Origin: Candidatus Abyssobacteria bacterium SURF_5
GTDB taxonomy: Bacteria; Abyssobacteria; SURF-5
Direction: 5' to 3'
Assembly (NCBI GenBank): GCA_003598085.1
Contig: QZKU01000059.1
Coordinates: 1-25,523, forward strand
DNA length: 25,523 nt
Shown: in pieces, positions 8,017 through 24,496 of the stretch
Layout of the letters: each line of letters starts with the position of its first letter
Position numbering within the stretch: the first letter of the stretch is position 1
Notes under the pieces: generated by a model
Told to the model about the DNA's origin: nothing
The model's input: only the letters and a program-made list of their open reading frames with translations
The model's database searches: none
Translations under genes and position numbers: made by a program

Positions 8017-9039
8017 TTAACAGATGCGGGGGAGAAGCCTTCCCGAAGGCATATCGATAATTCGTTTGCTGCCGATTGCAGTACGGCCGATCACCACTGC
8101 TTTCCCATATTCTATGACCCTGCCGATCACCGCTGCCGTTCTTCCATATTCATGGCGCTGCATCACCGCAAGCACCGTGTCGCAATCGCGCGCCGGACAG
8201 ATAATGATGCATTTGCCTTCATTTCCGATATTCAGAGGGTCGATTCCCAATAGATGACACACAGCCGACACCTCGTGGCGCACAGGTATCGCCGCCTCGT
8301 CCACTTCGATCGCTTTGCCGGATGCCGACGCCACCTCGTTCAGCGCTGCCGCTATCCCGCCTCTCGTTAGATCCCGCATGAAATGCAGGCCGGGGCAAAC
8401 CATGAGAATGGATTCGATCATTCCCGCGAGTGGGGCGACGTCGCTTTCGAGATCGCTCTTGAAGTCGTACTCGCCGCGACCGAGTATCAGGGCGACTCCG
8501 TGATCGCCTATGAATCCGTTGACAAGCACCGCGTCTCCGACATCAATCCGCTCCGGTCCGACAGAGACGTGCTCCGGAATATCACCCACGCCGGCGGTGG
8601 TAATGAATATCCCTTCTGCAGCCCCTCTCTCAACTACTTTGGTATCGCCAGTCGCAATGACGACATCGGCTTCTCTCGCCGCAGCGGTAACGGAGCGAGT
8701 GATTTTCTTCAGCAAAGATATCGGAAAACCCTCCTCGATTATCATCGACACCGACAGAAAGCGAGGCCGTGCGCCAGCCACCGCGAGATCATTCACGGTT
8801 CCACAGACGGCAAGCCTGCCGATGTCGCCGCCTCTGAAGAAAAGAGGCTTGACAACAAAAGAATCCGTCGTGAAAGCCAGTTTCCCCGCAGAACCCGATC
8901 GTATGACCGCGCTATCACCGAGTTCGCAAAGGATATCATTTGAGAAAGCTGATACGAAAATCTCCTCGATCAAGTTCCTCATCAGCTTCCCGCCGCCGCC
9001 GTGAGCCAGCGTCACACGCTCGATTGATTCGTTCTTCAC
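8017..9039 (-). CDS. hypE: Hydrogenase maturation factor HypE (carbamoyl dehydratase)
   Basis: HypE dehydrates the carbamoyl group passed from HypF into a cyanide, the CN ligand of the [NiFe] site, on its C-terminal cysteine. This 340-residue protein has the PurM-like ATP-binding fold: the AHGGGGKLM start, GDSAVI, FTTDSFVV, and GTVNDLAVAGARP. It ends in PRIC, with the acceptor cysteine as the last residue as the family requires. It is last in the operon, 31 bases after hypD. All functional landmarks look intact. Confidence 0.97.
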   Translation of the reverse strand: MKNESIERVTLAHGGGGKLMRNLIEEIFVSAFSNDILCELGDSAVIRSGSAGKLAFTTDSFVVKPLFFRGGDIGRLAVCGTVNDLAVAGARPRFLSVSMIIEEGFPISLLKKITRSVTAAAREADVVIATGDTKVVERGAAEGIFITTAGVGDIPEHVSVGPERIDVGDAVLVNGFIGDHGVALILGRGEYDFKSDLESDVAPLAGMIESILMVCPGLHFMRDLTRGGIAAALNEVASASGKAIEVDEAAIPVRHEVSAVCHLLGIDPLNIGNEGKCIIICPARDCDTVLAVMQRHEYGRTAAVIGRVIEYGKAVVIGRTAIGSKRIIDMPSGRLLPRIC

Positions 9040-9070
9040 AAACCGCTCCTGAAAAGGTCAGCACTTGCTT

Positions 9071-10180
9071 TCAAAAATCGTCGATGCCCGCCGTCTTCTG
9101 GTTATAATGTGCGGCGCATGTCCCTTCTGACGAGACAATGCATGGACCGATGGGAGTTTCCGGTGTACACGTTGTGCCGAATAAGCCGCATTCTTCGGGA
9201 GACTTGACTCCGCGAAGGATTTCGCCACACATACAACCTGGTGCAGGCCGACCTGACTCCACAGCCATGCCTGCTTCCATTACGGCATCAAACCTGGCAT
9301 ACCCTTTAGTAAACCCGAGACCGCTGTCCGGAATCAGGCTGAATCCGCGCCATTCGCTGTCAACTCGCTTGAATACCGTGCGTATGATGACCTGCGCCCG
9401 CCGGTTCCCGCCAAAAGTCACCGCTCGCATATACGCTATCTCCACCAGTGCCTTGGCCGCCTGTACCTGGCGAAGCAGCATCAAAACGGCAAGAAGAATA
9501 TCGACCGGCTCAAAACCGGAAACCACCGCCGGCACATGATGTGTTCGCGCAACCGCCTCGAAGGCAGAGGCGCCTATGATCGCGCTCACGTGTCCCGGGC
9601 ATATGAAACCGTCAATCCTCAGGTCTGGCGCTTGCGCCAGCACCTCGAGCGCCGGCGGAAGAAGTTTGTTCGCTGCAATCACAAACAGGTTCTCAATGCC
9701 GCTCCGTTCGGCCTGCATAAGTGTCCATGCGACCGACGGAGCCGTGGTCTCAAAGCCTGCTGAAAAAAACACAATCCGGCTGCTTCGATTCTCCCGTGCA
9801 AGGGCAAATAATTCGGTGGGGGAGTAGATCACCCGAACATCGGCGCCCCCCGCCCGTGCCGCTTCGAGTGAACCCCCGCCGCCCGGAACACGAAGCATAT
9901 CGCCAAAAGTGACGAGGATGACCCGCGGACGGCCTGCAAGAGTGATTGCAGCGTCAATAAGGCCGGGCGGCGTCACACAGACAGGACAACCGGGACCGGA
10001 AACCAATTGGATATTTTTCGGCAGCAGCCTCCGCAACCCGCTTTTCACGATCACAGCCGTATGCGTGCCGCAAACCTCCATCAGGGTTACACGCCGGGGA
10101 GCCAGGCGGAGCGCGATTCCTTCGATCTCCCGGACGAGGCGCACCGCCGCCCTCGGGTCATTCAGCATTCTCGTGATCAT
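9071..10180 (-). CDS. hypD: Hydrogenase maturation factor HypD
   Basis: HypD is the Fe-S scaffold that, with HypC, carries the Fe(CN)2CO unit during [NiFe]-hydrogenase assembly. The 369-residue protein shows MEVCGTHT near residue 35 and SGPGCPVCVTP near 62-72. Its C-terminal [4Fe-4S] cysteine region comprises GCMCGEILRG, then C-G-L-F-G-T-T-C-T-P, then GPC and GTC. The start overlaps the end of hypC by 23 bases. A second in-frame ATG lies four codons downstream and could be used instead. Confidence 0.97.
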   Translation of the reverse strand: MITRMLNDPRAAVRLVREIEGIALRLAPRRVTLMEVCGTHTAVIVKSGLRRLLPKNIQLVSGPGCPVCVTPPGLIDAAITLAGRPRVILVTFGDMLRVPGGGGSLEAARAGGADVRVIYSPTELFALARENRSSRIVFFSAGFETTAPSVAWTLMQAERSGIENLFVIAANKLLPPALEVLAQAPDLRIDGFICPGHVSAIIGASAFEAVARTHHVPAVVSGFEPVDILLAVLMLLRQVQAAKALVEIAYMRAVTFGGNRRAQVIIRTVFKRVDSEWRGFSLIPDSGLGFTKGYARFDAVMEAGMAVESGRPAPGCMCGEILRGVKSPEECGLFGTTCTPETPIGPCIVSSEGTCAAHYNQKTAGIDDF

Positions 10181-10388
10181 TCACCATCCGCCGCAAAAGT
10201 TCCAACGTCTTTATTGCTTTATCGAGATCAAGTTTATGGATAGCAAAACCGGTATGCACAAGAACGTATTCTCCGACGGCCAAATCGTCAACCAGCGCGA
10301 CGCAAATCCGCATCCGGATCCCGTCGATATCCACCCTGGCGTAATCACCCTCAACCTCTATTACGCGCGCCGGAACTGCAAGGCACAT
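10158..10388 (-). CDS. hypC: Hydrogenase maturation chaperone HypC/HybG
   Basis: A 76-residue chaperone that brings the Fe(CN)2CO group to the hydrogenase large-subunit precursor. The start is fixed by the family: MCLAVPARV, with Cys2 the essential iron and partner-binding residue. AGAGGGG lies upstream of this ATG. The frame is open further upstream but that extension is inside hypF. The OB-fold hallmarks VDIDG, VGEYVLVHTGFAI are present. Its start overlaps the hypF 3' end by 38 bases and its end overlaps hypD by 23, indicating tight translational coupling. Confidence 0.95.
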   Translation of the reverse strand: MCLAVPARVIEVEGDYARVDIDGIRMRICVALVDDLAVGEYVLVHTGFAIHKLDLDKAIKTLELLRRMVNDHENAE

Positions 10389-12681
10389 CACGTCCCCTCT
10401 CATTTGCCACAATCGCTTGCCCAAGAGAAATGCATTCATCGTTCGGAGGTAGGTATCGATGAAAATAGACTGAAAAACCGGCTGAGCCAAGTCGTTTCAC
10501 AACGTGTTCGAGTACGTATCCGTTTTGAAAGACGCCGCCCGTCAGTACCACCGCATTCAGATGTGTTTCTTCTCTGATCTGGCCGCACACATCCGCGGTC
10601 ATTTCACAGACGGCGTTATGAAAACAGGCTGAAATGATCTCTTTCGGCCGCCCCTCGAAAATGTCGCTTACAATCGCGGCGATGACGGGCGCCGGATCGA
10701 CAAGGATCGGCCGACAACAATGTATCTGAAAAGCATACGAATCTGTTACCCCCTTCGCCGCAATCGCTTCCAAATACGTCGGGCCTTCGCCTTCATACGT
10801 GGAGACCGTACAGAGTCGCAACAATGCGCCAACCGCATCGAACAACCTGCCCATCCCGCACGTCGAGGCGGCGTATTCTTTATTGTTGATGATGCTCAGG
10901 AGAAAGGATATTTTATCGCGACCCACTTGCGGGAATAGTTTCGTCGCGGTCTCGACAGCATTTTCCTTAAAAATCTCGTGCAGGTATGAGAAAGCCATTC
11001 GATATGGCTCGCGTACGGCCGCTTCACCCCCCGGCATCAGGATATATTTCATGTGGCCGAGCCGGCGATAATTGGAAGCGCGCACTGCAAGAAATTCACT
11101 GCCCCATATGCTCCCGTCCTCACCCAGCCCCGCACCGTCGAAAACAACTGCAAGTACCTCCGTGCCAAGCAGGTGATTCTCCGCTATGGAACTGACGGCA
11201 TGTGCGTGATGATGCTGCACCCGGTGCAGTCGCCCCCTCGCTCGCTCGAGGGCAAGTTGTGACGAGCCAAGTTCAGCATGCAGATCGCAGGCAGCCGCAC
11301 TGGTCTCAATTCCAAGTTCATGCTGCATCCCTTCAAGCATCTCTGTGCTGCTGTTCCGTGTCTCACAGTAGTCCAGGTCCCCAATGTAGCGGCTCACATG
11401 CGCCGCATTCCCTCTCGTCACGCAGACAGTGTTTTTTTTATGTGCGCCATACGCAGAAACAGTCGCAGTTGAGCTCTCCAACATAATAGGGCGGGGAACA
11501 AAGCCGCGCGATCGGCGGAGCAGAATCGGGAGAGAACCGGCAAACCGCACGATTGAGTCGTCGCATCTTCTGACAATATCTCGATCATGCAACAGCACCA
11601 GATCCGCTATTCCAGCCAACTCGGAAAGCGCTTCCTCATTTCGATAAATAAGGGGCTCGCCGAGCCTGTTCGCGCTGGTCATCACCAGGGCCGGGAAAGC
11701 ATCGCGCAGCAAAAGATGATGCAACGGAGTATATGCCAGCATGACTCCAAGGCTGTCGAGACCGGGCGCGACCCCGTCGGCGATTACTCCAACAGGCTTC
11801 CTCCGGAGAAGAACAATCGGGGACGCCGGGGAAGAGAGAGCGGCCTTTTCGGCGTCAGATACCTCGGCGTACGAAAGAACATCTTCTGTCACAGCCGACA
11901 TCAGGGCAAATGGTTTCCGCGGTCGCTGTTTCCGCAGCCGGAGCCGCTTAACGGCTTCCTCATCCTGCGCATTTGCCGCCAAATGAAATCCGCCCAGTCC
12001 TTTTACCGCAACTATCCGGCCTTCTTTCAGAAACATGATTGCTTCCGCAATCACATCCGCGCTATCGAGAACTCGGCCGCTGATATCAACCATCCTGATA
12101 TGTGGGCCGCAGGAAGGACAACTGTTGATCTGGGAATGAAAGCGCCTGCTCTCGGTATCCTTATATTCATTCCTGCATGCGCCACACATCTTGAAAACTC
12201 TCATCGAGGTCGCCTCGCGATCGAACGGCGCGGATTCGGCAAGCGAATAGCGCGGACCGCAGTGAATGCAGCCGTTGAACGGATACCGATACCGCCTGTC
12301 GGCAGGATCAAATACTTCGTTGACGCAATCAGCACACACTGCGCTATCCGGCGCAATACTCAAATCGGGCGCTCCACAATCCTCGCTCCTCAGTATCTGA
12401 AAACTTTCCGCGTGACGAGGCTCAGTATCAATGACCGAGGCCGAAACTATGCTCGCATGGAGCGGCGGGCGGGTAGTGACATCACTGACAAAGGCGCGAA
12501 CATCCCGTTCGCCGCCCTCGGCTTCAATCAAAACGCCGGTCCGAGTATTTGTGACAAACCCACCCACCCTGTGCTCGCGCGCTTTCCGGAAGACAAACGG
12601 GCGAAACCCCACCCCCTGAACGACCCCGGTTACCAGGATCTTCTTGCGCACGACGGCATCCGTTTTTGAAACGGTCCGCAT
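10351..12681 (-). CDS. hypF: Hydrogenase maturation carbamoyltransferase HypF
   Basis: HypF makes carbamoyl-adenylate from carbamoyl phosphate and transfers the carbamoyl group to HypE. Domains in order: acylphosphatase-like (VVQGVGFRPFVFRKA near 19-33); two zinc fingers (CADC...CIHC and CGAC...CPSC); YrdC-like (around VKGLGGFHLA and MTSANRLGEPL); and a C-terminal Kae1-like domain with HHHAHAVSS and LTGGVFQNGYV. Its 776 residues are normal. The frame is open up to 12885, but that extension lacks homology features and would overlap the protease gene. The ATG at 12681 is therefore chosen although its Shine-Dalgarno is weak. The C terminus has NDECISLGQ where relatives usually have NDGG, plus a short tail running into hypC. 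Confidence 0.95.
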   Translation of the reverse strand: MRTVSKTDAVVRKKILVTGVVQGVGFRPFVFRKAREHRVGGFVTNTRTGVLIEAEGGERDVRAFVSDVTTRPPLHASIVSASVIDTEPRHAESFQILRSEDCGAPDLSIAPDSAVCADCVNEVFDPADRRYRYPFNGCIHCGPRYSLAESAPFDREATSMRVFKMCGACRNEYKDTESRRFHSQINSCPSCGPHIRMVDISGRVLDSADVIAEAIMFLKEGRIVAVKGLGGFHLAANAQDEEAVKRLRLRKQRPRKPFALMSAVTEDVLSYAEVSDAEKAALSSPASPIVLLRRKPVGVIADGVAPGLDSLGVMLAYTPLHHLLLRDAFPALVMTSANRLGEPLIYRNEEALSELAGIADLVLLHDRDIVRRCDDSIVRFAGSLPILLRRSRGFVPRPIMLESSTATVSAYGAHKKNTVCVTRGNAAHVSRYIGDLDYCETRNSSTEMLEGMQHELGIETSAAACDLHAELGSSQLALERARGRLHRVQHHHAHAVSSIAENHLLGTEVLAVVFDGAGLGEDGSIWGSEFLAVRASNYRRLGHMKYILMPGGEAAVREPYRMAFSYLHEIFKENAVETATKLFPQVGRDKISFLLSIINNKEYAASTCGMGRLFDAVGALLRLCTVSTYEGEGPTYLEAIAAKGVTDSYAFQIHCCRPILVDPAPVIAAIVSDIFEGRPKEIISACFHNAVCEMTADVCGQIREETHLNAVVLTGGVFQNGYVLEHVVKRLGSAGFSVYFHRYLPPNDECISLGQAIVANERGRDVPCSSGARNRG

Positions 12682-12757
12682 AAAGCTGTCACTCTTGCCT
12701 AAAAGAACTTTTTTCTTTGAACTAACCCGATCAAAAGCAGGAGAACCCAAGAGCCAA

Positions 12758-13234
12758 CTACGAAACAATCTCTTGCGACCCTGAAACCAATCCCCTGATA
12801 TGATCAAGGAGTTCAGGAATTGCCGCTTCCACCTGCGGCGACAACTCCCGGCCGGCCGTTGTGATCGCTGGTTCAATCCCCACAAATATGAACTCCGCCC
12901 CCACAGATCCGACCGCCTTCAACAACACGGCCCAATTGACCGGCGACAGCCGGTGGGCTGAACGGGATCCGCTGCAAAAAGCACTCAGGTCTTGCTCTCG
13001 TATGCAGTGCACAGTTCCGGGAACAGCCCCAAGTTGAATGGCGTCAACGATAATGATCCGGCATTCTTCTAAATATGCCCCCAACACAGAAAGAAAGTCC
13101 GAGCCACAGTCCAGAACCGATGCTCCGTCAGGGAGGCCCGACTCCCTCAGCCGATGCACAACGTGCCTCCCCAGCCCGTCATCACTGAGTAAGTCGTTCC
13201 CAACACCGACTATGAGTGCCGTTGAATATCCCAT
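12758..13234 (-). CDS. [NiFe]-hydrogenase maturation protease
   Basis: This endopeptidase removes the C-terminal peptide of the hydrogenase large subunit after nickel insertion. GVGNDLLSDDGLG near the N terminus, IIIVDAIQLG in the middle and SAHRLSPVNW carry the conserved Asp, Asp and His that read the nickel site. The start at 13234 (MGYSTAL) gives 158 residues, the family norm. It lacks a clear Shine-Dalgarno, and a TTG a few codons upstream behind AAGGA is an alternative; the frame is open to 13300. It is first in the hyp operon. Which hydrogenase it serves cannot be told, since no large subunit is in the window. Confidence 0.9.
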   Translation of the reverse strand: MGYSTALIVGVGNDLLSDDGLGRHVVHRLRESGLPDGASVLDCGSDFLSVLGAYLEECRIIIVDAIQLGAVPGTVHCIREQDLSAFCSGSRSAHRLSPVNWAVLLKAVGSVGAEFIFVGIEPAITTAGRELSPQVEAAIPELLDHIRGLVSGSQEIVS

Positions 13235-13325
13235 AAAATCAGCAAGCCGCGACAAAACAATCCTTGCGAAAATAATGTCATCTTTCCATACCATTATCAA
13301 TGCAAGACGCGCGAGAGCCTTTCTC

Positions 13326-23223: not shown

Positions 23224-24496
23224 CTACAAGAACCAGGTCGGCTTCTTCGCGAGCAGATCCTGCACTCTGCTCCGCAGCCAGCTCTCAAGACCCTTCTCAA
23301 TATAAAACTTTGGGGACAGAAGACTGTCCTCCGGCGGGATGATACCCTCTTCAACAGCGATCTTCGCCAGTCGTGTGTATGGATAAATACGAATCCCTAT
23401 GCTGATCTTCAGCATGTCGAGATCAACTGACTCGGCAAAGCTTAAACTCTCTTCGACCGATTCCTTCGTCTCTCCCGGTCCGCCCAGCAGAAGAAACCCC
23501 ATTCGGCGTATGCCAAAGTCCTTGAGCAGCGCGCATGTCCACCGGACATCATCCGGCTTGAATCTCTTATTCATCGAGCAAAGCATGTGCTCGCTCCCGC
23601 TTTCGCACCCAAGAGAGACTTCCTTGCAACCGGATTTCGCCATGTCCCGCACGAGAGTATCGCTAAGCTTGACCGGATAGACGATGCATCTCCATGAAAC
23701 TCTTAGTCCGCTCGATATCAGCTTGCGGCACAACTCGCCGGCATATGAAGGCGGCAGATTGAAAGTGTTGTCGGTGAAATAAAATTGGGTAAAGCCCTTT
23801 TGCACGTGCCGAGCCATCCACTCAATGACCGGGGCAACGGAACGGCTCCTGAGTTTCCTGCCTTCGACCGTGGCGGTCGAACAATAGCTGCTCCATCGAA
23901 CACCCTCGCCTGGTCTGAATGGGCATCCATACCGCCGGGTCCCGCGCGAAAGAACCCCGCCACAGGTCCGGCCCCGGCAATGGCAGATCGTCCAGGTTCT
24001 CTACAAATTCTCTTTCGCCCTGTAAGCCCTTTCCCCGCAGATACAGGCCCGGAATTCCCTCAACGCCCGCCTTCTCACAAAGACACCCCAGCAGCTTCAA
24101 GAAAGACGCCTCGCCTTCGCCCTGGATACCCATGTCCGCCCCCAAATATTCCAGCGCCGCCACCGGCACAATGCTGTAGCCGGCTCCACCAATAACGACC
24201 GGCGCAGGCGAAAGCCTCTTGCACTCCATAACGGTCGCTCTTGCCTTGTCGAGCATGAACTTCGTATCTTCCATTCTCTGGTCATCGATGTTTCTGACTG
24301 AGATGCCGATTACTTCCGGGTGAAACTCGCAAATGGCTTCCTGAAGAACCGGAAGAGGGTTCGTCTCGCCCATAAGATCAAGCATCTGAATTTCGTGTCC
24401 GGCCTGGCGTGCCGCCTCGGCTATGCATCCCAGCCCGAATGGCAGCGTGGGCATATTCACTTTTTCCGTGTTGGCGGAAATAAATAAAACCTTCAA
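23224..24496 (-). pseudogene. B12-binding domain radical SAM protein, frameshifted in the Fe-S motif
   Basis: Two adjacent reading frames together make one B12-binding/radical SAM protein. The first part has a cobalamin-binding-like domain (VLFISANTEKVNMPTLPFGL, VIGISVRN, VVIGGAGYSI, GADMGIQGEGE), without the DxHxxG motif, as in BchE-like families. It reaches RRGCSME, leaves frame and stops at 23822. The other frame resumes as SYCSTATVEGR and continues through the SAM barrel to 23224. Adding the two bases TG after GAG near 23890 restores C-x3-C-x2-C and gives one 424-residue protein. The start is a TTG at 24496, with AAGGAG eight bases upstream. It is either a genuine disruption, which removes one cluster cysteine, or a sequencing or assembly error. 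The substrate is unknown. Confidence 0.85.

Follow-up and report, generated by a model that had tools for sequence, protein, structure and literature searches.

The window, a stretch of 25,523 nucleotides, is the entire contig C59 of Candidatus Abyssubacteria SURF_5, a single MAG obtained from 150-bp paired Illumina HiSeq 2500 reads that had been co-assembled with IDBA-UD (PMC6121073). The MAG, which originated from deep groundwater, comprises 5,103,455 bases in 145 contigs, with a longest scaffold of 208,377 bp. A B12-binding/radical-SAM gene was found in the window as one gene split over two reading frames, the features of which are listed in Table 1. By eye, a putative hydrogenase maturation cluster (hypE, hypD, hypC, hypF and a maturation-protease-like gene) was also seen on the minus strand at 8017-13300, with all frames open and the gene ends overlapping.

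Translation of the minus strand yielded an upstream frame, QTRRGCSMEQLL, the recognisable part of which stops with QTRRGCSME, and a downstream frame, SYCSTATVEGRKLRSRSV, which is recognisable from SYCSTATVEGR and runs to a stop at 23224. The change of frame coincides with the second cysteine of the CxxxCxxC motif, where the minus strand reads CGA GGG TGT TCG ATG GAG / C AGC TAT TGT TCG ACC GCC ACG GTC GAA (the slash marking the junction), and the downstream frame reads R-W-S-S-Y-C across it. When the orthologue from SURF_17 was used as a tblastn query, two collinear pieces were returned with one residue absent between them: query residues 1-202 on 24496-23891 (frame -2, 65% identical) and 204-422 on 23889-23233 (frame -3, 63% identical). 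These two pieces exceed chance by far and fix the junction at 23890/23891. Neither half contains any additional stop or shift and, when rejoined from the TTG start at 24496, they amount to 424 residues, equal to the SURF_17 orthologue. The sequence-only reading of this locus had placed the lesion within the motif at 23881-23896, between frames reading GCSME and SYCSTATVEGR, and had predicted a continuous protein of 424 residues, all of which proved correct.

Table 1. Features of the split B12-binding/radical SAM gene, in positions of the window.
Feature	Position	Strand	Evidence
B12-binding/radical SAM gene in two frames, orthologue of the SURF_17 424-aa gene	23224-24496	-	sequence, tblastn, orthologue comparison
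Upstream frame: B12-binding domain PF02310 (E=1.5e-14), then the motif up to its first Cys and adjoining residues (GCSME); GGAG before the TTG start	23891-24496	-	
Downstream frame: radical SAM core PF04055 (E=7e-16), reaching from the third motif Cys to the stop	23224-23889	-	
Junction: two bases and the middle Cys codon of CxxxCxxC absent relative to all orthologues	23890-23891	-	
TGA closing the upstream frame as assembled	23822-23824	-	
Perfect inverted repeat (8 bp, 3-nt loop) within coding sequence, at a distance of 9 nt from the junction; not conserved in SURF_17	23863-23881		

Profile searches of genome contigs with the window half alone as the query gave no match, whilst a two-sequence alignment retrieved 11 loci. 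The comparison with sister genomes that had been proposed from the sequence alone found the SURF_17 orthologue (locus L043 of genome G002; CAMDCSYCSTATIEG) to be intact, as a single frame of 424 codons (64/62% identical) with the motif CAMDCSYC. Nine more orthologues likewise carry the motif in an open frame, in MAGs that include deltaproteobacterial and acidobacterial ones; one of the nine (L045) runs off its contig upstream. As the motif lies in a single open frame in all ten orthologues found, that of SURF_17 included, the break is peculiar to the window copy. No close orthologue was found in G001, the other genome of the family, and a search of viral contigs for the junction pattern returned no match. 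SURF_5 itself also encodes an intact, more distant B12-binding/radical-SAM paralogue of 446 residues on the minus strand of contig C92 (36215-37501), with the motif CAFNCLYC.

The arrangement of a B12-binding domain in the first half followed by a radical SAM core in the second places the gene in the B12-type radical SAM superfamily; CxxxCxxC stands in one open frame in the ten orthologues, but not in the window copy as assembled, from which the middle cysteine codon is absent. Both halves, like the intact orthologues, matched best to TIGR04072 (rSAM_ladder_B12), the lipid biosynthesis B12-binding/radical SAM protein, which has the same domain order and shares CxxxCxxC with the orthologues of the split gene. 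However, three intact orthologues scored 252-310 bits, below the curated cut-off of 360 bits, such that they form a neighbouring group, and the window copy lacks the middle cysteine codon. Tryptophan 2-C-methyltransferase (TIGR04428, PDB 6wte), in which a B12-binding domain also precedes the radical SAM core, is the nearest solved sequence (E=2e-31), yet with 137 of 500 bits the match lies well under the cut-off of that family. BzaD (TIGR04385), a radical SAM protein of B12 lower ligand biosynthesis, is likewise a B12/radical SAM protein and alignable over its full length, but the score of 171 of 450 bits leaves the family of the split gene outside it. We infer that the intact enzyme is a cobalamin-dependent radical SAM enzyme and assign its function to that level only; it is probably a methylase or a related carbon-chemistry enzyme near TIGR04072. 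The neighbours of the orthologues, which include CTP synthase, Band_7, histidine kinase and sigma-54 activator genes among others, are not conserved and thus give no hint to the substrate.

To assess decay of the gene, the window protein was aligned with nine full-length orthologues, and the columns that are invariant in all of the others were counted. Of these, the window protein keeps 32 of 35 ahead of the junction and 48 of 51 beyond it, whilst intact orthologues, when each is omitted likewise, lose 1-5 invariant columns ahead of the junction and 0-10 beyond it. The split gene therefore does not resemble a decaying pseudogene, in that its invariant residues are kept as in intact orthologues and further stops or shifts are absent, which bears out the earlier impression that there was no decay beyond the junction. 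It follows from this lack of decay that the lesion, if real, is very young.

Programmed ribosomal frameshifting or transcriptional slippage might fuse the two open, conserved frames into a full enzyme, and a hairpin does lie downstream of the junction. Each single shift of -2, -1, +1 or +2 was enumerated at every codon boundary, up to 60 bases past the start of the junction codons ATG GAG. A total of 111 single shifts yielded proteins of more than 400 residues, but none of these contained CxxxCxxC, since the middle cysteine codon is not among the bases present (the downstream frame reading R-W-S-S-Y-C there). Nor was there a slippery run at the junction or a conserved break, all ten orthologues being uninterrupted; hence the programmed shift raised in the sequence-only reading is refuted. 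Of the slippery or structured sequence for which it had advised a search, the slippery run was not found, and the hairpin was, but the region shows no remarkable fold (z -1.6). Programmed shifting was accordingly rejected as a route to a normal radical SAM motif, and fusion of the frames by this means is exceedingly improbable. An adaptive split, in which the B12-binding and radical SAM fragments act as two proteins, the second translated from the ATG at 23817, appears very improbable as well. As that ATG follows the upstream-frame TGA by a few bases, re-initiation would be possible, but a second fragment begun there lacks all three cluster cysteines, full-length conservation persists through the stretch that would go untranslated in the second frame, and the arrangement occurs in none of the relatives compared. 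A recoded or split enzyme is thus not supported.

The sampled SURF_5 genome contains 1.7 stems per 10 kb of the kind formed by the 8-bp inverted repeat, and hairpins are a known kind of deletion hotspot. The repeat may have triggered slippage or a read error; its closeness to the junction, spotted after the fact, is suggestive and fits both slippage in the cell and technical error. The loss does not lie within a homopolymer. No 20-base word around the junction recurs in the 1.08 Mb of SURF_5 sampled, so that collapse of a repeat is not indicated.

The background rate of frameshifts at conserved gene places was estimated by tblastn over ~1.08 Mb of sequence from SURF_5 and 1.6 Mb from SURF_17. 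Approximately 315 conserved gene places were testable in SURF_5 and, the window gene (which had been chosen beforehand) aside, none of the remaining ~314 carried a clean frameshift. In SURF_17, which stems from the same co-assembly, three clean isolated frameshifts were found in ~334 testable conserved genes, along with one doubtful case. The three are situated in L115 at ~1316 (C21), L118 at ~14180 (C24) and L127 at ~16574 (C27), the last of which adjoins a run of C. Apparent frameshifts in L032 and L042 relative to histidine-kinase-like queries were discarded, the matches being multidomain and of low identity, and stops within tblastn matches were left out of the count, as many were terminal or in antisense frames. 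At a rough estimate, ~0.5% of genes (about one in 200) are broken in this way, or ~20 per genome of 4,000-4,500 genes, a figure that lumps real with false breaks and derives from incomplete detection. Against this background, one break in a catalytic motif is unsurprising. In bacterial assemblies, many seeming frameshift pseudogenes are artefactual and depend on coverage and assembler, with false frameshifts generally fewest in Illumina assemblies (PMC11017572). The window gene resembles these artefacts, being conserved apart from a lone frameshift and coming from a short-read assembly, but differs in that isolate assemblies were considered there, whereas the present case concerns a metagenome co-assembly and is judged from the assembled sequence.

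The lesion is almost certainly a plain two-base loss, not a programmed one, in an ordinary B12-binding radical SAM gene. With the programmed shift removed by the enumeration of 111 shifts, both of the other explanations first proposed remain, namely that the lesion is very recent or that the assembly is in error. We slightly favour a technical loss over a real lesion, and hold it to be about an even chance that the gene is intact in the cell. Two bases would in that case have been lost in the reads, in the assembly or in the choice of consensus. Consistent with such an error are the invariant residues kept in both halves with no accumulated stop or second shift, the ten intact orthologues, the origin of the genome as a single co-assembled MAG, the three frameshifts in ~334 genes of the co-assembled SURF_17, the hairpin beside the junction and the commonness of artefactual frameshifts in bacterial assemblies (PMC11017572). 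Counting against it are the lack of a homopolymer at the loss, the absence of other frameshifts from the ~314 SURF_5 places, the unique 20-base words and the low frequency of false frameshifts in Illumina assemblies (PMC11017572).

A real lesion, only just short of an even prospect, would be a very recent two-base deletion, perhaps arising by slippage at the 8-bp hairpin, with a null allele present in or dominating the sampled SURF_5 population. The product would be a truncated B12-domain fragment of ~224 residues from the TTG start, devoid of the [4Fe-4S] site. Null mutations also arise for real in natural populations, and the break is isolated, outside homopolymers, in Illumina data and next to a hairpin of the kind at which deletions recur. 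Near relatives, moreover, manage without the gene, as in G001, or with paralogues, as with the intact motif on C92 of SURF_5. However, relaxed constraint was not seen, and a real lesion must therefore have been caught very soon after arising. It is unlikely, though conceivable, that a fresh null allele coexists with an intact allele in SURF_5, in which case the deep subsurface would harbour a standing polymorphism for loss of the gene.

The case serves chiefly as a warning, in that its position in a catalytic motif makes the break seem meaningful, yet its frequency fits the background of both genomes. Loss of function is not to be concluded from it, and the gene is best annotated as a B12-radical-SAM gene whose frameshift is unverified.
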